Assembly (NCBI GenBank): GCA_030428385.1
Contig: JAUIDY010000018.1
Coordinates: 1-64,000 of the forward strand
Reading direction: 5' to 3'
Length of the DNA stretch: 64,000 nt
Source of the DNA: Rhodothermia bacterium
Lineage (GTDB): Bacteria; Bacteroidota; Rhodothermia; Rhodothermales; JAAAOL01
Shown here: piece by piece, positions 26,271 through 40,494 of the stretch
Layout of the letters: the number at the start of each line of letters is the position of its first letter
Numbering within the stretch: the first letter of the stretch is position 1
Notes under the pieces: generated by a model
Databases searched by the model: none
Told to the model about the DNA's origin: nothing
Seen by the model: the letters and a program-made list of their open reading frames with translations, nothing else
Translations under genes and position numbers: made by a program

Positions 26271-26297
26271 GGAGCTATGACAACCAAGGTACAAGCC

Positions 26298-26558
26298 ATG
26301 AATGTATCACTAACGCCGCAGCTCGAAGCCTTTGTGCGCGAGTTGGTTGGTTCGGGGCGGTACAACTCTGCCAGTGAGGTGGTACGCGAAGCGCTGCGTT
26401 TTGCCCAGGAGCGGGAGCAGGTGCGTGCCATTAAGCTAGAAGCACTACGCGAAGAAATCCGCAGAGGTCTTGAAAGCCCGTCGCTCGGGGAGTGGGATGT
26501 CGAGGCGTTCTTGAACGAAGCCCGTGAGACCTTCGCCGAGGGTAACGTAGCAACCTGA
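26298..26558 (+). CDS. parD: ParD-family antitoxin
   Basis: I choose the ATG at 26298 because the core family sequence MNVSLTPQLEAFVRELV starts there and the promoter leaves no leader for the ATG at 26277. The 86-residue protein has a ribbon-helix-helix N-terminus (residues 1-45, with YNSASEVVREALRF) and a C-terminal tail that would wrap the toxin. Its stop overlaps the ParE start by one base (TGATG), the usual coupling of these pairs. Confidence 0.9.
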   Translation: MNVSLTPQLEAFVRELVGSGRYNSASEVVREALRFAQEREQVRAIKLEALREEIRRGLESPSLGEWDVEAFLNEARETFAEGNVAT

Positions 26559-26863
26559 TGGGCCGCATTGAACGAAGACAACAGGCTAACCTTGACCTGT
26601 ACGACATCTGGGAGCACATCGCACGGGAAAACAGCGCGGCGGCTGATAACGTCATCCGTCGCATCCACAGGACACTTCAAAAGCTCGCCGATATGCCAGG
26701 GTTAGGACGCACTCGCAGAGAACTTGCCCCTAACCTCCGCAGCTTCGTCGTCATGCAATTTGTGGTTTACTACGTGCCTCTTATAGATGGCATAGAAGTG
26801 GTTCGGGTACTCCATAGCAGGCAGGACGTGGACGATGCCTTTGGATTTGAATCCGATGAATAG
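26558..26863 (+). CDS. parE: ParE/RelE-family toxin
   Basis: The 101-residue product has the ParE toxin pattern: RQQANLDLYDIWEHIARENS at the N-terminus, then LADMPGLGRTRREL and RSFVVMQFVVYYVPLIDGIE with VVRVLHSRQD at the C-terminus. ParE toxins poison DNA gyrase; RelE relatives cleave mRNA. The ParE assignment rests on the partner and on GLGRTR. It would act as a plasmid-addiction module. Confidence 0.9.
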   Translation: MGRIERRQQANLDLYDIWEHIARENSAAADNVIRRIHRTLQKLADMPGLGRTRRELAPNLRSFVVMQFVVYYVPLIDGIEVVRVLHSRQDVDDAFGFESDE

Positions 26864-27304: not shown

Positions 27305-27505
27305 CTATGCGTGGATGTCGGATGGTTCGCCGTGTTCGCGAAGCACCACCCGGCCGCTTAGGGGCAAGGCATCAAGCATGATCGACAGGCCTTTGCCATC
27401 GCTGTGCATCCAGGCGGCCCCGATCTTTGTCCAGCTACCATTTGCCTCGTCCTCCTGCACTACATAGGCGATATAGGAGGGCTTGTTGGTTGGGTTGTTT
27501 TCCAT
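27305..27505 (-). CDS. Small hypothetical plasmid protein, 66 residues
   Basis: I start at the ATG at 27505 (MENNPTNKPSY); a longer frame upstream is not supported. The core SWTKIGAAWMHSDGKGLSIM followed by LDALPLSGRVVLRE is a pattern seen in many small plasmid and phage proteins of unknown function. It lies at the downstream end of the structured region 27614-27970 on the same strand. Confidence 0.6.
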   Translation of the reverse strand: MENNPTNKPSYIAYVVQEDEANGSWTKIGAAWMHSDGKGLSIMLDALPLSGRVVLREHGEPSDIHA

Positions 27506-27613
27506 AGACGTATGTAAAAACTGATAACGAGCGCTATTAGGCTCAGCAGTCAGTATAGCATGAACGCGGCAAATGGTCGGTGCTCTCAGATGCCGGGCAT
27601 CCACCAGCACCGA

Positions 27614-27970
27614 TGCGGGCAAGGCCCGCAGGTATGAAGTGGGCTATTCCAACCTGTTTCCATACGCCACTTCATACCTAAAAACGAGGAAAAGCCCGAT
27701 GGGCTTTGCTGTTTTCTTTTTGCGCCGTCGGTCGCTCCGCTCCCGACTTCGACCCGCTTCCACCTCCTTCGCTGCTTACTACCCGTGCGCTACTTCGGAC
27801 ACAGGCACTCCGCTGACGCTGCGTGGGTGGACGACGCGTTGCTTGGACGAGGCGTGCTCTTTTGCCAGATCCAGCCGAACGCCTCGCCAGCGTGCCGAAG
27901 TCGGGAGCTTGTCGCCCCGCACACCTCACCTACGTTCGGGATGCGTGGCAACCCCGACGGCGCAAAAAGA
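27614..27970 (-). ncRNA. Densely structured non-coding segment: candidate large ncRNA or origin of transfer
   Basis: The 636-base gap between 27505 and 28142 has four nested or adjacent inverted repeats. They are TGCGGGC/GCCCGCA (27614-27630); GGTATGAAGTGG and its complement (27631-27642 with 27667-27678); a minus-strand terminator (27691-27707); and a long-range pair of 17 bp perfect (27715-27731 with 27954-27970) that encloses a 13-bp perfect pair (27739-27751 with 27896-27908) and an 8-bp hairpin (27848-27855 with 27879-27886). On the minus strand this makes a closed RNA of about 256 bases followed by a terminator. Frames through it are low-complexity Arg/Ser-rich and look non-coding. An oriT is the main alternative because a coupling-type ATPase follows. 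Confidence 0.5.
27691..27707 (-). terminator. Terminator at the 3' end of the structured segment (minus strand)
   Basis: AAAGCCC and GGGCTTT pair around a short loop; on the minus strand the hairpin is followed by TCCTCGTTTTT. It would end a leftward transcript that covers the closed structure at 27715-27970. Confidence 0.6.
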
Positions 27971-28141
27971 GGGACCGCACTTGCGTGCGCGCAGGAGTTA
28001 TCCACGGATGCGCTAAGACAACGCGCGTGTGCTACACTAGAGGCTCAAAAAAACGAAAGGCTCCGAAGTATACGTCAGCCCCGTTTATGTGCCGTGCTGG
28101 CCCCACACAAGCCCATGTACGGCTCGTTTTGGGGTTGTCTT

Positions 28142-29425
28142 ATGGCTCGTGAGTCCAACACAAATCATGTCACGACGATTGCCAAGCGCGAAGGCTATGG
28201 GGGTAGGGGAGAGATCGTTACGCTAGATGCCGAGGCTAGGCGTCGGCATCTTTACGTTGTGGGAAAATCCGGCAGCGGCAAATCGACCCTGATCGGCAAC
28301 ATGATCGTGCAGGACATCCACCAGGGGAGAGGCCTTACCTTTTTAGACCCGCACGGGGATCTGGCGCTGGATCTGTTAGATCAGATTCCACCGGAGCGCA
28401 TCACCGACGTGCTTTATTTCGACGCGGCGTGTGCGGATTATCCGGTTGGATTTAACCTGCTGGAGAAAAAGCGGGCAGCCAATCATCTTGTGACATCAAG
28501 CGTGATCGACGTGCTGCGCTCAATGTGGCAAGACTCGTGGGGGCCGCGCATGGAATACATCTTGTCCAACGTGGTTGCAGCGCTTGGTGAGCGGGAGGGG
28601 AGTACGCTTTTGGGCGTGCAGAAACTCCTGGTTAATCGGGATTACCGGCAGCACACGCTGCGTTTTGTGCACGATCCGATCATCCAGGCCTTCTGGCATC
28701 ACGAGTTTGACCGGTGGCCGCAGCGATTGCAGCAGGAAGCCATCGCGCCGATTCAGAACAAAGTCGGTCGCATCACCGGGCACCCAGTCTTGCGTAATAT
28801 TGTCGGGCAGGTGCGCTCGACGTTCGACCCGCGCCGGGTGATGGATGAAAAACGGATCGTGATTGTCAACCTCGCGCGGGGCGTGTTGGGAGCCGATGCT
28901 TCCAACCTGCTGGGGTCGCTCCTGGTGGCGGCCTACAGTCTGGCTGCCTTTTCACGCGCCGACACGCCCTCAGATCGACGCTCACGGCACAGCCTTTACA
29001 TTGATGAGGTGCAGCATGTAGGGGCGGGAGCGCTGTCTACGCTGCTTTCAGAGGGCGCTAAGTATGGGGCAGAGATAATTGCGGCGAACCAGTTCACCTC
29101 GCAGCTCGATGAAAGGGTGCGTGATGCCATCTTTGGCAACGTGCAGACCATTATGTCCTTCAGTGTAGGAGCGAGTGACAGCCTGCATCTGGAGCGTGAG
29201 TTCAGCCAGGACGTGAAGCAGCAGCAATTCACCGAGCTTGCCCCCCACGAGGTGTTTATCAAGACAGGAAGCTTGCCCGAGGAGCGGGTGCCTTTTCGGG
29301 CAAGGACGCTTCCAGCGCTCGGTATGTATTACGGCCGTAGCAGATCGGTTGTCGGGCGAAGCAGGACGCAATTTACGAGGCCAAGACAGAAAGTGGAGGA
29401 GAAAATAGCCCGGTTCTTACAATAG
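28142..29425 (+). CDS. HerA/TraD-like mobilisation ATPase (DUF87 type)
   Basis: I start at the ATG at 28142 since the open frame upstream runs through the structured segment and looks non-coding. The 427-residue protein has Walker A VVGKSGSGKST (about 37-47), the phrase GLTFLDPHGDLALDLL typical of VirD4/TraD/HerA ATPases, and Walker B SLYIDEVQHVG (about 284). No transmembrane helix is seen, so it may be a soluble coupling or pumping ATPase. A decayed copy of its Walker B downstream region lies at 31337-31431. A second, membrane-anchored relative is at 38869-40494. Confidence 0.85.
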   Translation: MARESNTNHVTTIAKREGYGGRGEIVTLDAEARRRHLYVVGKSGSGKSTLIGNMIVQDIHQGRGLTFLDPHGDLALDLLDQIPPERITDVLYFDAACADYPVGFNLLEKKRAANHLVTSSVIDVLRSMWQDSWGPRMEYILSNVVAALGEREGSTLLGVQKLLVNRDYRQHTLRFVHDPIIQAFWHHEFDRWPQRLQQEAIAPIQNKVGRITGHPVLRNIVGQVRSTFDPRRVMDEKRIVIVNLARGVLGADASNLLGSLLVAAYSLAAFSRADTPSDRRSRHSLYIDEVQHVGAGALSTLLSEGAKYGAEIIAANQFTSQLDERVRDAIFGNVQTIMSFSVGASDSLHLEREFSQDVKQQQFTELAPHEVFIKTGSLPEERVPFRARTLPALGMYYGRSRSVVGRSRTQFTRPRQKVEEKIARFLQ

Positions 29426-30706: not shown

Positions 30707-31336
30707 ATGAAGCCCCGTACCCACATCTACATTGATGGCTTTAACCTTTTCTATGGTGCTCTCAAAGGCACTCCTTACAAATGGCTGGATCTAAATCGTC
30801 TCTGCGAATTGCTCCTGCCGCACAATGACATACAGTCGATCAAATACTTTACGGCCCGAGTGACGGCGCGATCAAACAAACCAAACCAAGCCACCAACCA
30901 GCAATTCTATCTGCGAGCGCTCCAGACGCTTCCGAACCTGGATATCATCTATGGTCACTTTCTCTCGAATGAAGTGCGGATGCCTTTAGCCAAACCAATC
31001 CGTGGCCAATCAGCAATGGTGAAAGTCATCAAAACCGAAGAGAAAGGGTCGGATGTCAACATCGCAGCTCACCTCGTGAACGATGCACATAGAGGCCTCT
31101 TCGATGTAGCCGTCCTGATTACGAATGATTCAGATCTATTAACTCCCATGCAAATTGTTCAAAGAGAACTTCATTTACCTGTAGGTCTCATCAGTCCATA
31201 CAAACGTATTGCGCACGTCCTGGCACGGGAGGCAGCATTTAAGAAGAAAATCCGAAGCGGGGTGCTCGGAGCGAGTCAGCTTCCGCACACGCTTCGAGAT
31301 GGGCAGGGGATGTTCCATAAACCAGCGTCATGGTAG
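30707..31336 (+). CDS. NYN-domain (PIN-like) ribonuclease
   Basis: The 209-residue protein is a NYN/LabA-type nuclease. Acidic active-site residues are visible in YIDGFNLFYGALKG (Asp at about residue 10), EEKGSDVNIAAHLVNDA (two Asp) and DVAVLITNDSDLLTPMQ (Asp-Asp). Such enzymes cut RNA and occur in defence and mobile elements. It is flanked by two similar hairpins, and a fragment of a second NYN copy lies at 35153-35233. A defence or RNA-turnover role is inferred. Confidence 0.88.
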   Translation: MKPRTHIYIDGFNLFYGALKGTPYKWLDLNRLCELLLPHNDIQSIKYFTARVTARSNKPNQATNQQFYLRALQTLPNLDIIYGHFLSNEVRMPLAKPIRGQSAMVKVIKTEEKGSDVNIAAHLVNDAHRGLFDVAVLITNDSDLLTPMQIVQRELHLPVGLISPYKRIAHVLAREAAFKKKIRSGVLGASQLPHTLRDGQGMFHKPASW

Positions 31337-35262: not shown

Positions 35263-36210
35263 TCAAGTTGTAAGAAGCCGGCTTTGCTTGTCATCACGGG
35301 CATTGTTCCATGCATGGTGCAGAGCACCACCAATTGCCTCTTTTTGCGTTGAAAAAAGTAGGTGCTTTCCGTTCTTACGCGGATAGGGCTGCTCGTCAGT
35401 TATTATCTTCGCTGCCTGGATAAAGTGATCCCGTCGCTCTGCACTGGTTGTCAGAAAGAGCGTGCGCACGCCCGCAACGCCGAAGTGCTTTTTGTGTAAG
35501 CCTTGCTTCCACGACTCATGGTACGACATGAGCTTCTTATATATCGACGAGCGGTCTGGATTCGCTGAATGCACCGGCATCGTCCCTCGATCCACTTCGA
35601 CAAAGTAGTACGACGAAGCAATCTTCTCGGGCCTTCCATTTTGCTTCAGGCCGAAGGCTGCGTCCGGCATGAGTCCTACGTCCTCGGCCCCAAAGTCATA
35701 CCCCGATATATCCACTCGCCAGGAGAGGGGAGAGGTGCCGGTGAACTCGCGCTGTGGAATAAACGTCACATCGTTTCGGCTTTTACAATCAACCTCGATG
35801 CCGACTAGGAAGTCGGCTACGGCCAATTCATGGGCAAGGAAGAGGCGTCCCACAGATCGATTTTTCCATTGCCAGTTTACGCTGCCGCGCGGGAGGCCTT
35901 TTCTCACGCGCAGGGCCTCCGCGCCCTGGTCTGCCAAGGCATACACCATCGTGCTTTTGCCACCAAAGCGCTGATAATCGAGTTGCACTTTGGGGCGGCC
36001 CAAGAAGCCCGCGTGGAAGAGTTCTCTAAGGCGGTCGATGAGCCGCTTGCTTCCATAGCCACCCGGCGGGCACAGCAAAGAAACCAGATGGTCAGAACGG
36101 AGGAATCTCTGCCGGTAGAGATAATCCAGAATCGCGTAATCCCGCTCCGTGAGATGGACGTTCTTTTTCTGTGGCCCGCGTACAAAGCGCCGCCTTTTCT
36201 TCAGAGTCAT
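35263..36210 (-). CDS. Replication-relaxation family protein, copy 1
   Basis: The chosen start is the ATG at 36210 (MTLKKRRRFVRG); a longer frame upstream lacks support. The 315-residue protein has an N-terminal winged helix (LTERDYAILDYLYRQRFLRS and KRLIDRLRELFHAGFL) and a C-terminal domain with MPDAAFGL followed by YYFVEVDRGT. This pattern, Pro-Asp then Glu-x-Asp in a beta strand, recalls PD-(D/E)XK nucleases; that link is my inference. Family members are plasmid mobilisation or replication factors. A second copy is at 37987-38853. Confidence 0.8.
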   Translation of the reverse strand: MTLKKRRRFVRGPQKKNVHLTERDYAILDYLYRQRFLRSDHLVSLLCPPGGYGSKRLIDRLRELFHAGFLGRPKVQLDYQRFGGKSTMVYALADQGAEALRVRKGLPRGSVNWQWKNRSVGRLFLAHELAVADFLVGIEVDCKSRNDVTFIPQREFTGTSPLSWRVDISGYDFGAEDVGLMPDAAFGLKQNGRPEKIASSYYFVEVDRGTMPVHSANPDRSSIYKKLMSYHESWKQGLHKKHFGVAGVRTLFLTTSAERRDHFIQAAKIITDEQPYPRKNGKHLLFSTQKEAIGGALHHAWNNARDDKQSRLLTT

Positions 36211-36451
36211 ATACTGGCAGTGTAACAGATGGCCCCACGCTTTTGCGGCTGACATCCTCGCACCGCGAGGCATGTGGTTTCCAAGAGGGGAAGCCTGAGG
36301 TGTTGATGGAGGCATTCTAGGGGGGCAAGGCGGGGGAGGGTCTACCAAGCGACATGCTACCCGTTGAACGCCACGGGGTGACCGAAGCACAGGGTTATGC
36401 TACGCTGGGATCGGAATGCTCTTTTTGCTTTAACCAACCCAGACGAAAGCT

Positions 36452-37360
36452 ATGACTTTGCATGCTGCATTCGATGCTCAGAGGATAGGAGACGGGGACC
36501 TTAATGGCCGCGTCGAGATTGTTCACCAAGACCGTCCGCATGGCCCTGTGCTTCACACCGCAGATGCCCTAGAGGACCTCTTCACCAGCCAGCGCTGGAT
36601 GCCCTCCAACCGGCGAAGCCGCATTGCGTACCCAGCGCCGCAAGAACTGGTCGTGCCATTCCTAAAGCGTCTCGAACCGCTCCATGATCTGGGCATCGAC
36701 CTTCATGTCGAAACGTCGCATCCAACCTCGGTGCAAGACCCCGCGACCGAAGAGGTGCGCACCGCCGTTGGTCGTTTTTTGGTCGAAGCACGCATTGGAA
36801 GACACGATGAAACCGACCACCAGCAGGTCATTGGTTTCGTGGCAGCGCTCGACATTAAAGTGCCAGAGGTGCAGGTCTACTACGGCCGTAACGCCAAGGC
36901 CTGTATAAACCTTGCCATCTTCCGCCGGGATCACTATGCCAAGGAGAGCCTCCTTACGGGCGGCGAAGATGTCATTTTTGCCATGACCGAACGCTTCGTG
37001 AGTGGCTTTGGCAGCGACGAACGTACGTTCATCGAACACGTAAACCGCCTCAAGGAAACAGTATGGAACGAGGCGCAGATCAACGAACGGGTGGGGCGGC
37101 TCTACCGGCGTTTTCTAACACGCGGCAACCTGACCCAGACGCTCAACTATGCGATCAAACTTCTCAGTGAGCCCAACAGCCGCTACGCCATAAATCCCGA
37201 CGGCACAACAACTGCCTGGAACTTCTTTTCTGCCATGACCCAGTACGTTACCGATAAGGCGTACCTGAACACAAAGGCGGAGAAGACGCTTCAGATTGCC
37301 GAAGAGGTGTGCGCAGACCTACTGGGACTGGCCTTCGATGGGCAGGCTGATCCTACATGA
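36452..37360 (+). CDS. Hypothetical protein, DUF932-like
   Basis: The 302-residue cytosolic protein resembles the DUF932 plasmid and phage proteins in length and in its C-terminal phrase TAWNFFSAMTQYVTDKAY, which corresponds to the family's NxxN or WxxxNAxTxY-like tail. The N-terminal half is not distinctive. A terminator follows at 37376. Divergent from the replication-relaxation gene, it shares a short promoter region with it (36211-36451). Family assignment is tentative. Confidence 0.5.
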   Translation: MTLHAAFDAQRIGDGDLNGRVEIVHQDRPHGPVLHTADALEDLFTSQRWMPSNRRSRIAYPAPQELVVPFLKRLEPLHDLGIDLHVETSHPTSVQDPATEEVRTAVGRFLVEARIGRHDETDHQQVIGFVAALDIKVPEVQVYYGRNAKACINLAIFRRDHYAKESLLTGGEDVIFAMTERFVSGFGSDERTFIEHVNRLKETVWNEAQINERVGRLYRRFLTRGNLTQTLNYAIKLLSEPNSRYAINPDGTTTAWNFFSAMTQYVTDKAYLNTKAEKTLQIAEEVCADLLGLAFDGQADPT

Positions 37361-37375
37361 GGCCACATTTTTCAA

Positions 37376-37404
37376 GACCTACGGTGCCACCCGTGGGTCT
37401 TTTT
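37376..37404 (+). terminator. Terminator of the DUF932-like gene
   Basis: GACCTACGG and CCGTGGGTC form a 9-bp stem with one G-T pair around TGCCA, followed by TTTTT. It lies 16 bases behind the stop. Confidence 0.85.
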
Positions 37405-37440
37405 CCCCACGGTGCTATTTGCGTGGCCACAGGGGTGTGT

Positions 37441-37917
37441 TTACCAGGCTTTGAGTACGTCTTTGATCCCTTTCTCGTCGAGATCGGTGTTTTCAAGCAG
37501 GTCTTGTACCGCATCCATGACGGCAAGGTGAACAACCGTATTAAAAAGGTGGCTTATGTCGTCTCTCAAATAATCTTCAGACCTTAACCGATAGTCGTCG
37601 TCAGTCTTAAGTTTTCGCATCCAAAGGAGCCGTCTCAAGGCTAGATATTTTCCAAAATCCCATGCTCCGATAACGATGGCTGCATGCTGGTTGGTGCCTC
37701 TAACGACCAGACACTTGCGGGAAATCCCCTTGCCCTTGCCCGTAAGGAGCCCCACTTTCTCGGCAAAAACCTCGTACCCACACGAAATACCACCCACGTC
37801 AATGTCATTGAGGTGGGTGATTACGTATTCATAGAATTGATCCCTCATTCCGCGGGCTCCGTAGATTAGTTGCCCCCATTCATTGAGGATGTCCCGGTTG
37901 TTTAGCGCCTCTGGCAT
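37441..37917 (-). CDS. Hypothetical protein, 158 residues
   Basis: I do not recognise this family. The soluble product contains YGARGMRDQFYEYVITHLND, a Cys-Gly-Tyr phrase, and a central basic patch KGKGISRKCLVVRGTNQHAA. It lies 69 bases downstream of the second replication-relaxation gene on the same strand and is probably the last gene of the leftward mobilisation operon. Confidence 0.55.
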   Translation of the reverse strand: MPEALNNRDILNEWGQLIYGARGMRDQFYEYVITHLNDIDVGGISCGYEVFAEKVGLLTGKGKGISRKCLVVRGTNQHAAIVIGAWDFGKYLALRRLLWMRKLKTDDDYRLRSEDYLRDDISHLFNTVVHLAVMDAVQDLLENTDLDEKGIKDVLKAW

Positions 37918-37986
37918 GCGTCTAGGTTAGCTGGTGGAAAGGCCTGACTTAATAATAGACACAAATGGGAGGGAAGTATAACCTTT

Positions 37987-38853
37987 TCAGGCGATTTTAT
38001 ACCGCCGGTCGTCGTTTGCGTCGAGTGAACACCATACGTGGTCAAAGGCCGTTTCTTCCGTAACCTGGTCAAACGTGGTGAGCCAGAAGAAACGGTAGAG
38101 CGGAGGGGCACTGGTGCCCAGCATGGAGCGGATATTCTCAACCCGCCGCGGCGACGTGGTCACGATCAACAGACGAAACCGGGAAAAGGGAGCGCAATGA
38201 AAGTCCTCGGCGTACCCTTTGTATTTGCCTTCACGGGCGTACCCTTCATAGAAGCGTATCATTTTCCGGATGCCTTTTTCGGGGTTGCTGATGGTCTCCG
38301 TACCCCGGTCGATCTCCAGGAAATAAAGGGCCTGCTTGCTTTCTTTTCCGAGGGCAAACACCGCGTCGGGCGTGTGGGATATTTTCTCCTTCGGGTCGGT
38401 GATGCTGAAGGCCACGTCCTTGATGTACTTGGTTACGCGCCCCGATAGATGCTTGGCCCCGTAGTGTTCAGGAATGAAACCAAGGAGAGTAACCGGTGAC
38501 CGCTCTGTAGCCTTTGTGAGGGTGATGCGAAAGTCGCTGATGGCACAAAAGTGCTTCATGAAATAATAGTCCTTCGGAGGCTTGGTGCCTGCACTCCAAA
38601 GGAGGTCATCCGGGGAGACGTTCAAGAGTTCAGCTACAAGGTTTGCGCCCCGTGTAGTAAGCATGTACGTCCGCTCGTTGAGGTTCGGGACGGTGAAGTG
38701 TCGAAGGAGCTTGTGGGTCGCAAGGGTAGACAAGCGGCGCTGCGCCGTACGCGCGGAGGGGAAGTGAAGGCGCATGACCTGGGACGTCGTCAGGTAGCGG
38801 TACCTGTAGACAGAGAGGAGGACGTCGGTGTCTCGTTCGGTGATCGGGTACAT
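37987..38853 (-). CDS. Replication-relaxation family protein, copy 2
   Basis: The 288-residue product has an N-terminal winged helix (ITERDTDVLLSVYRYRYLTT and RTAQRRLSTLATHKLL) and the family C-terminal domain with HTPDAVFALG followed by LYFLEIDRGTETI. The Pro-Asp and Glu-Ile-Asp positions match those of copy 1, with low identity elsewhere. The gene is 15 bases behind the membrane-anchored ATPase and belongs to its operon. A nicking or relaxation role at a transfer origin is plausible but not shown. Confidence 0.8.
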   Translation of the reverse strand: MYPITERDTDVLLSVYRYRYLTTSQVMRLHFPSARTAQRRLSTLATHKLLRHFTVPNLNERTYMLTTRGANLVAELLNVSPDDLLWSAGTKPPKDYYFMKHFCAISDFRITLTKATERSPVTLLGFIPEHYGAKHLSGRVTKYIKDVAFSITDPKEKISHTPDAVFALGKESKQALYFLEIDRGTETISNPEKGIRKMIRFYEGYAREGKYKGYAEDFHCAPFSRFRLLIVTTSPRRVENIRSMLGTSAPPLYRFFWLTTFDQVTEETAFDHVWCSLDANDDRRYKIA

Positions 38854-38868
38854 ACCGCCTCGCTTTTG

Positions 38869-40494
38869 TTAGAACTCATCAGGATCAGACCAATCAAACG
38901 GGGCAGGGGAGCCGTCCGGTGAACCTTCCTCCGGTGTGGTAGGGGCACGTCGGGTGCCTTGGGCCGGGGTTCCGTAGTTGGTGCGTGAGCGCTCGACGGC
39001 GTCTTCCTTGATAGCCCAATTGGGCGAACGCGTAACGAGCTGCGTTCGCATGGGAAGGGTGGTGGTGCCAATCTTGGCGTAGGTCGATCCCACCCTGAGC
39101 GCAACCAGCGCGTCGGGATCGACTTTCTCCACCTCCAGGCCTGACGTAGAAATGAGTTCAGGGGAAAGGCGCTTGGCATCTTCGCGGGACACGACAAAAC
39201 TGATCATGGTGGAGACGTTGCCGAAAATCTCCTTGAGCAGCCCCGGCGGGATCTGCCCGGTTTGTTGGTGGGCCAAGGTGAGGGAGAGGCGGTATTTGCG
39301 AGCGCGGGAAAGGAGCTTTTCGTAGGACGTGCTCGCGGTTGAGGTGAATGCCTGAAACTCATCGATGTAGAGATAAAAGCGTCGGCGTTTTTTCTTCGCC
39401 ATGTTGGCGCGGCCCATGACGGCAAGCTGAAACTTCGAGACAATAAGCTGGCCTAGAAGCTGGCTGGTCTGCTCGCCTAAGATGCCATCGGAGAGGTTGA
39501 AGAATGCAATTTTCCCCTCATCCATAATGCGCCGAAAGCTGAGGCTCGACTGGGGTTGGCAAAGCACGTTTTTGACGTACCGAGGCCTCGTGAACCGAGA
39601 GAGCCGGTAGACGATGGGATGGTGCGCGTTCTTCGGAAACTGCACATATACGTCGCGCCAGAAGTGCAGGGTGTCGTGGTCATCTAGCTGCGACAGGATT
39701 TGGTTTCTAAAGTGGGTGTTTTCGCGGTCGAGCAGGCGCGGGATGTCGAGCAGGGTGGTGCCGGGGAGGGGGAGGAGGGCGTAGAAGGATTGCCGTAGAA
39801 TCTCATTGGTGCGCGGGGTGGATTCACTTCCCATGAGCCGGTTGAAAATGGTCATGTTTTCGTCGGCCCGGAGGTCGAGGTCTTCGCCTTCGTCAAGGTG
39901 TAAGGGGTTGAGCGATACAGGGAAGTGGGTGTCTGCCGGGTTGAAGTAGATGACATCATCTAGGCGGTGCGCAGGGACATAGGGCAGGAGTTCTTCGGTG
40001 ATCATTTCTTGTTCAGGAGCGATCACCCCGACGCCGTTACCCGCCTCCATATCCTGTATGATCATCTGCCGAAGGAGGGTGGTTTTGCCAGAGCCAGACT
40101 TGCCCACGATGTAGACGTGCCGGTCGCGGAAATCTTGCTTGAGCTTCACCGGCACATCGCTGTCTCTCCAGGTGCCAAGCTGGAGGGCTTCATAGTCCAT
40201 CATCTCCATCGCGATCATGCCGAAGAGGTCGTCAGCTTCCACCTTTTCGTCTTTAACGAGGGCTTCTATGACGCCGCTTGAGATGACCTCGCGAACGATA
40301 AAGCCGAAGTTGGACAGGTAGAACTCAACAACCTCCGCACACGCTGCCAGGCGCTCCTGTTCGGCGCGCTCGAGGTGATCTTCTTGGAAGCGTTCGCGTT
40401 GTTTTTTAGCTTCGCGATCCCTGTTCCACAAGCTAATAAAGAGGACAAGGCCAGCAAGTACAACAGCGCCAATACATAGCTCTTCCAAGTCCAT
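38869..40494 (-). CDS. Membrane-anchored TraD/HerA-like coupling ATPase
   Basis: One helix at residues 7-23 is followed by a basic/acidic coiled segment and an ATPase domain. Walker A is GKSGSGKTT at 131-139, Walker B is YLYIDEFQAF (about 385-395), and a sensor segment SLTLAHQQTGQIPPGLL follows, as in TraD/VirD4-type pumps. The tail (490-541) is Pro/Gly/Asp-rich. It heads the leftward operon with replication-relaxation copy 2 and the 158-residue protein. It would couple DNA to a transfer channel, yet no channel genes are present in the window. Confidence 0.88.
   Translation of the reverse strand: MDLEELCIGAVVLAGLVLFISLWNRDREAKKQRERFQEDHLERAEQERLAACAEVVEFYLSNFGFIVREVISSGVIEALVKDEKVEADDLFGMIAMEMMDYEALQLGTWRDSDVPVKLKQDFRDRHVYIVGKSGSGKTTLLRQMIIQDMEAGNGVGVIAPEQEMITEELLPYVPAHRLDDVIYFNPADTHFPVSLNPLHLDEGEDLDLRADENMTIFNRLMGSESTPRTNEILRQSFYALLPLPGTTLLDIPRLLDRENTHFRNQILSQLDDHDTLHFWRDVYVQFPKNAHHPIVYRLSRFTRPRYVKNVLCQPQSSLSFRRIMDEGKIAFFNLSDGILGEQTSQLLGQLIVSKFQLAVMGRANMAKKKRRRFYLYIDEFQAFTSTASTSYEKLLSRARKYRLSLTLAHQQTGQIPPGLLKEIFGNVSTMISFVVSREDAKRLSPELISTSGLEVEKVDPDALVALRVGSTYAKIGTTTLPMRTQLVTRSPNWAIKEDAVERSRTNYGTPAQGTRRAPTTPEEGSPDGSPAPFDWSDPDEF

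Follow-up and report, generated by a model that had tools for sequence, protein, structure and literature searches.

The question raised by this locus is what is carried by the densely paired non-coding gap in front of a coupling-ATPase-like gene, and on which strand. The window, that is, the whole stretch of DNA analysed, covers 64,000 bases of the 64,990-base contig C184 from a draft genome of 6.19 Mb. The gap is flanked by a minus-strand gene (27305-27622) and by the start of the coupling-ATPase gene at 28142. The latter gene (P0001, 28142-29425, plus strand, 427 aa) was annotated as coupling-ATPase-like from a TrwB_AAD_bind match (2.4e-7, obtained with the longer ORF), a sequence match to the TrwB structure 1e9r and a relative in genome G066. 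Plasmid-type genes of the contig comprise RepA_C, ParA, a tyrosine recombinase, two Replic_Relax and a second coupling ATPase; the neighbours of the paired element itself are the coupling ATPase and small uncharacterised genes. The second coupling ATPase (33% identical to the first) is encoded with two Replic_Relax-family proteins at 35263-40494 (minus strand), possibly as a separate mobilization module. An NYN-domain protein encoded just downstream of the coupling-ATPase region (30707-31336, plus strand) matched the PADLOC candidate defence family HEC-09 at 7e-42. A ParD-like/ParE toxin-antitoxin pair is located at 26277-26863 (plus strand); the ParE toxin was matched at 1.6e-16, and the 93-aa protein upstream of ParE was assigned by eye as a ParD-type antitoxin. 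A metal-resistance-type cluster including efflux genes spans 40840-62834 (two P-type ATPases, an RND pump, DUF411, LTXXQ and an M50 protease).

The initial annotation had described the segment 27614-27970 as holding perfect inverted pairs of 17, 13 and 8 bp, an upstream hairpin with 12-bp arms and a minus-strand terminator. All of these were located. The 17-bp perfect pair joins 27715-27731 to 27954-27970 with 222 nt between the arms. Nested in it is an inner pair with a 13-bp perfect core (27739-27751/27896-27908) that lengthens to 20 nt at 90% identity (27739-27758 with 27889-27908), and inside the inner pair lies the 8-bp pair (27848-27855/27879-27886). So many pairings had been judged unexpected by chance, and this was borne out: when the 636-base gap was dinucleotide-shuffled 400 times, the longest perfect inverted pair to arise had 12 bp, compared with 17 bp in the real sequence. 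The structure in the segment was thus confirmed and its extent corrected, the conserved element being 27715-27970.

Read on the minus strand, the whole conserved structured element (27715-27970, the proposed body of a non-coding RNA) is supported by its foldability and by a covariance-model match found only here and in G066. Just 5' of it is a small hairpin, CGCAC-GCAA-GTGCG (27976-27993), identified from the sequence and as a stem at 27994-27975 in the terminator scan; its loop is of GNRA type on the minus strand only. The 5' arm of the outer closing stem P1 (TCTTTTTGCGCCGTCGG, 27954-27970) was assigned from the perfect pair and its conservation in G066. It is followed by the predicted hairpin P2 (27911-27953), placed between the outer and inner stems by folding and alignment, and by the 5' arm of the inner stem P3 (GCTCCCGACTTCGGCACGC, 27890-27908), which is 13 bp perfect within 20 nt at 90% and is conserved in G066 with two compensatory pairs. 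The P3 interior (27758-27888) is poorly conserved in sequence; it includes the 8-bp pair, and two more hairpin domains were predicted there. The 3' arm of P3 (27739-27757), defined by the inverted pair, motif order and alignment, holds the conserved string GGTCGAAGTCGGG. The 3' arm of P1 (CCGACGGCGCAAAAAGA, 27715-27731) completes the 17-bp perfect pair, and its core (U)GCGC-N-GUCG is conserved in G066 with a compensatory C-G/A-U change. The terminator scan recovered the annotated terminator as a terminator-like hairpin (27707-27691, minus strand) immediately beyond the element's 3' end.

The upstream hairpin of the initial annotation is a separate, imperfect one (27630-27647/27662-27679), with a 13-bp perfect core AGGTATGAAGTGG inside 18 nt. 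It sits between the terminator and the minus-strand gene and is a different feature from the element, since it lies beyond the terminator. In G066 a hairpin, TGTAGTTACC/GGTAACTACA, is found on the same side of its element and differs in sequence from the one at 27630-27679.

The nearest relative of P0001 within the order (probably Rhodothermales, judged by contents and kinship; 38% identity) is encoded in G066, the MAG B33T1B8, on contig C71 (JADFHF010000016.1, 'Bacteroidetes bacterium isolate B33T1B8'). Within the 430 bases before this ATPase gene a counterpart of 194 nt with nested inverted arms was found (contig positions 74986-75179). Two nested stems are common to both copies, as is the order of motifs: TGCGC-N-GTCG, then CCCGACTTCG, a variable interior, GGTCGAAGTCGGG and CGAC-N-GCGCA. 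The aligned arms are identical at 12/15, 17/22 and 15/19 positions (counted by eye); the P3 interior and the P2 hairpin are not alignable, and the alignment of the two copies gives no hairpin in G066 at the position of P2. When the element was aligned locally half by half, 0 and 5 of 2000 shuffles scored as well. From the end of the element to the ATPase start is 171 bp in the window and about 182 bp in G066 (152 to an alternative GTG). Inside the G066 element the arm motif occurs a third time (GAAGTCGGG-ACGCAGTCGC), and the contig ends about 90 bases beyond the element.

A 30-pair structure was laid over the aligned arms, and 95% of its cells were paired. Four of the 30 pairs are altered on both sides between window and G066, with none in slid controls; the same number was reached in 33 of 500 column shuffles, and with only two sequences the compensatory changes carry modest weight. 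The initial annotation had named beforehand two outcomes that would speak against a structured RNA, the absence of a homologue with covarying stems and a protein frame conserved in relatives. The G066 copy is such a homologue, with its four compensatory pairs, and it shares no frame with the window element.

Coding potential was considered on this basis. The segment might encode a small basic protein, or it might extend the coupling ATPase at its N-terminus, since the ATPase frame is open back to 27785 and a 147-aa frame spans the segment. The initial annotation had read the frames here as giving only Arg/Ser-rich sequence; several of them are open by chance, but none is conserved in G066. The translations are of low-complexity Arg/Ser type, most frames of the G066 counterpart are interrupted by stops, and the G066 ATPase frame begins after its element; a coding function is therefore extremely unlikely.

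The same alignment bears on whether the element could be a MITE-like non-autonomous insertion, with the 17-bp terminal and the inner repeats as transposase-binding ends. The terminal inverted repeats do match in sequence between the copies, and the G066 element has CTTCT on both flanks, a possible target duplication. The window copy, however, has no flanking direct repeat, and the element is single-copy both in its own genome and in G066. Both copies occupy the same place beside a coupling-ATPase gene, and the compensatory changes extend through the inner stem. This origin is disfavoured and was rated highly improbable.

Folding was analysed next to the comparison. In a 256-nt scan of both strands the element, on the minus strand, was the most structured 256 nt of the 64-kb window, at 6.2-6.5 sd below the window mean (3.6 for the next other location) and -39 to -41 kcal/mol relative to shuffles (-23 at the next other place). 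RNA folding of 27715-27970 gave z scores of -9.26 (minus strand) and -5.35 (plus strand). The G066 element gave z -8.16 on the strand opposite its ATPase gene and -7.16 on the other. The stronger folding of this strand is due to G-U pairs in both copies: the gain from allowing them was 23.5 kcal/mol on the minus strand against 3.0 on the plus strand in the window, and 12.1 against 1.9 on the corresponding strands in G066. When G-U pairs were forbidden, the two strands of the window element folded similarly. The G-U-favoured strand also has a purine excess. A stable, strand-specific fold followed by a terminator, the pattern of an intrinsically terminated RNA gene, was seen in the window copy only; the G066 element has no recognisable terminator. 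Neither copy has a good visible promoter on the minus strand, where only weak -10-like boxes were seen. As the arms are quasi-palindromic, alignment of window and G066 in inverted orientation scores nearly as well as in the direct one, which weakens the strand argument; the strand of the G066 copy was accordingly assigned from synteny and folding, not from alignment.

From the G-U strand bias of both copies, the purine excess and the terminator directly after the closing stem, a minus-strand RNA gene was favoured. We give roughly an even chance to the reading that 27715-27970 is the body of a new structured non-coding RNA gene, putatively about 260-290 nt long, on the minus strand. Its start of transcription would lie in the 170 bases that separate the element from the coupling-ATPase gene; transcription would proceed in the direction leading away from that gene and end at the terminator at 27707-27691. 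The resulting RNA, of that length, would close on itself by the 17-bp outer stem and a 13-19-bp inner stem enclosing the variable domain. We infer both this transcription and a role, namely that the RNA would serve DNA transfer of its own mobile element. The coupling ATPase or relaxosome proteins would most plausibly bind it as a scaffold or accessory RNA. A role of the element in transfer is suggested by its place beside the transfer motor in two mobile elements, one of which, in G066, also carries a NikA/MobC-like gene and an integrase gene.

The position of the element between two divergent transcription units could instead indicate regulatory DNA or a leader for the coupling-ATPase gene and the minus-strand genes (operator palindromes plus an attenuator), and the separate hairpin with the 13-bp core (27630-27679), close to the minus-strand gene, would suit such a region. 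A putative promoter of the coupling-ATPase gene, however, lies downstream of the element in both copies. It is an extended -10-like box, TGCTACACT (28030-28038, plus strand), 63 bp past the element; the G066 box, TGGTACAAT, is 55 bp past its element. Both have the form TG-N-TACAnT and fall between the element and the ATPase start, and no convincing -35 hexamer accompanies the box at 28030-28038. Because it is upstream of this promoter, and because the more strongly folding strand points away from the gene, the element would not be part of the ATPase leader. Operators, moreover, need no closed 256-nt fold with nested stems 150-220 nt apart. A regulatory region of this kind was judged improbable. 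For the proposed RNA, control of the coupling-ATPase gene through base pairing is a less likely role, since the element is upstream of the proposed promoter and not antisense to the gene.

The main rival is a cis-acting DNA site, most likely an oriT, or a relaxosome-binding region, of a mobile element. The nested repeats would then fold on the transferred single strand or bind NikA/MobC-like proteins and the coupling ATPase. We consider this possible, at clearly less than an even chance. Inverted repeats commonly make up oriT regions. The oriT of SGI1 has three (PMC9299015). Intergenic inverted repeats next to transfer genes, as looked for in an oriT, are present here, the element being directly upstream of the coupling-ATPase gene, and short motifs recur in both arms. 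Folded as single-stranded DNA, the element is also far more stable than shuffles (z -4.9). In G066 the gene next downstream of the ATPase encodes a NikA/MobC-like mobilization protein and is followed by an integrase gene; the product of the latter, a tyrosine recombinase encoded about 2 kb from the element, is an ordinary integrase by its domains. Against an oriT, the closed structure of 256 nt exceeds the usual oriT hairpins, and the G-U-dependent strand bias of both copies, with the terminator abutting the 3' stem, fits RNA better. No NikA/MobC-like neighbour of the ATPase was found in the window; the only relaxase-like genes detected (Replic_Relax) are at a distance of several kb, and one of these directly adjoins a coupling ATPase of its own. 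A known nic consensus was not recognised by eye. Between the two readings of the initial annotation, a closed minus-strand RNA with a terminator or a complex oriT, the strand bias and the terminator thus favour the RNA, and the oriT stays as its rival.

Searches for further members were made with the window, the element and models of it. The window had no match above the gathering threshold among 4227 Rfam families, and a relaxed Rfam search with the window and G066 elements returned chance matches only, outside the element, in agreement with the earlier remark that it resembles no named RNA family. A CRISPR-like repeat was rejected (Rfam CRISPR-DR28, score 17.7 against a threshold of 35), as was a retron RNA, no reverse transcriptase being present among the neighbouring proteins scanned. 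Strict and relaxed blastn searches against plasmids and phages gave chance matches only, and blastn against the 98 other most related genomes gave a single 35-bp match, inside an acetolactate-synthase gene (L003). A motif scan of viral contigs yielded no real match. In the motif scan of GTDB species representatives only the G066 contig was real; the other matches lacked the return arms or, where inspected, were in coding-like sequence. A first covariance model (R1, 98 columns, interior removed) did not recover its own members because their interior is too long. A second (R2) was derived from the two copies after their interiors had been trimmed, so that its recovery of both, at 102 and 69-75 bits, is by construction. 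R2 was run on 114 genomes from the order, 245 from the class and a phylum sample of 394, and gave no credible match beyond the two known copies; weak matches in G090, G038, G361 and G450 were inside protein genes. In total two members were obtained in 1,834 genome searches (overlapping sets) and in pattern scans of GTDB representatives and viral contigs. Coupling ATPases of greater similarity (40-42% identity; L015-L018, L023), from other Bacteroidota families, have no such nested pair upstream; in L015 and L023, whose gene maps were read, the ATPase gene is directly adjoined by a divergent gene, so that the element would have no space. The corresponding region of the G008 relative is AT-rich and unstructured. 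The element is real, conserved and without a name, a pair of members being too small a basis for naming a family.

Among described RNAs the closest in kind is sgm-sRNA of SGI1, which is encoded in the mobilization module and required for transfer; the study describing it suggests that it may work through binding to transfer proteins, helping to assemble or couple the transfer complex (PMC9299015). Like the RNA proposed here, it is structured, non-coding and intergenic beside transfer genes; it belongs to an integrative element and has a core of about 280 nt or less (PMC9299015). It differs in maturing from a longer transcript beside mpsA (a tyrosine-recombinase-type relaxase gene) and oriT, in Gammaproteobacteria (PMC9299015). 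Here the neighbour is a coupling ATPase, no position between an mpsA-type relaxase gene and an oriT is found, and the RNA looks self-contained with its own terminator; the two are likened by description only. With the oriT regions of conjugative and mobilizable elements the element shares an intergenic, inverted-repeat-rich position adjoining transfer genes, whereas its nested closed fold is larger, its G-U pairing is strand-specific and it has no recognised nic site or adjacent relaxase gene. The raiA-motif, GOLLD, ROOL and similar Rfam RNAs are likewise long, closed, multi-helix and intergenic, some of them on mobile elements; the present element has no covariance-model match to them at the gathering level or with relaxed E-values and has so far been found in two species only.

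More broadly, an undescribed RNA family may travel with the coupling-ATPase genes of Bacteroidota (Rhodothermales) mobile elements, forming a ribonucleoprotein that selects or delivers DNA for conjugation; we regard this extension as doubtful. Accounts of bacterial conjugation deal almost entirely with proteins and DNA sites, and we know of no transfer origin described for this group. The element is an interesting, unproven lead on RNA in conjugation. In the literature searched, one required mobilization RNA is reported, that of SGI1 (PMC9299015). If the element does specify a mobilization RNA of this kind, it would be a second, independent case of RNA in conjugation, in a phylum far from Salmonella; if it is an oriT instead, it would be a new kind of transfer origin for this group.
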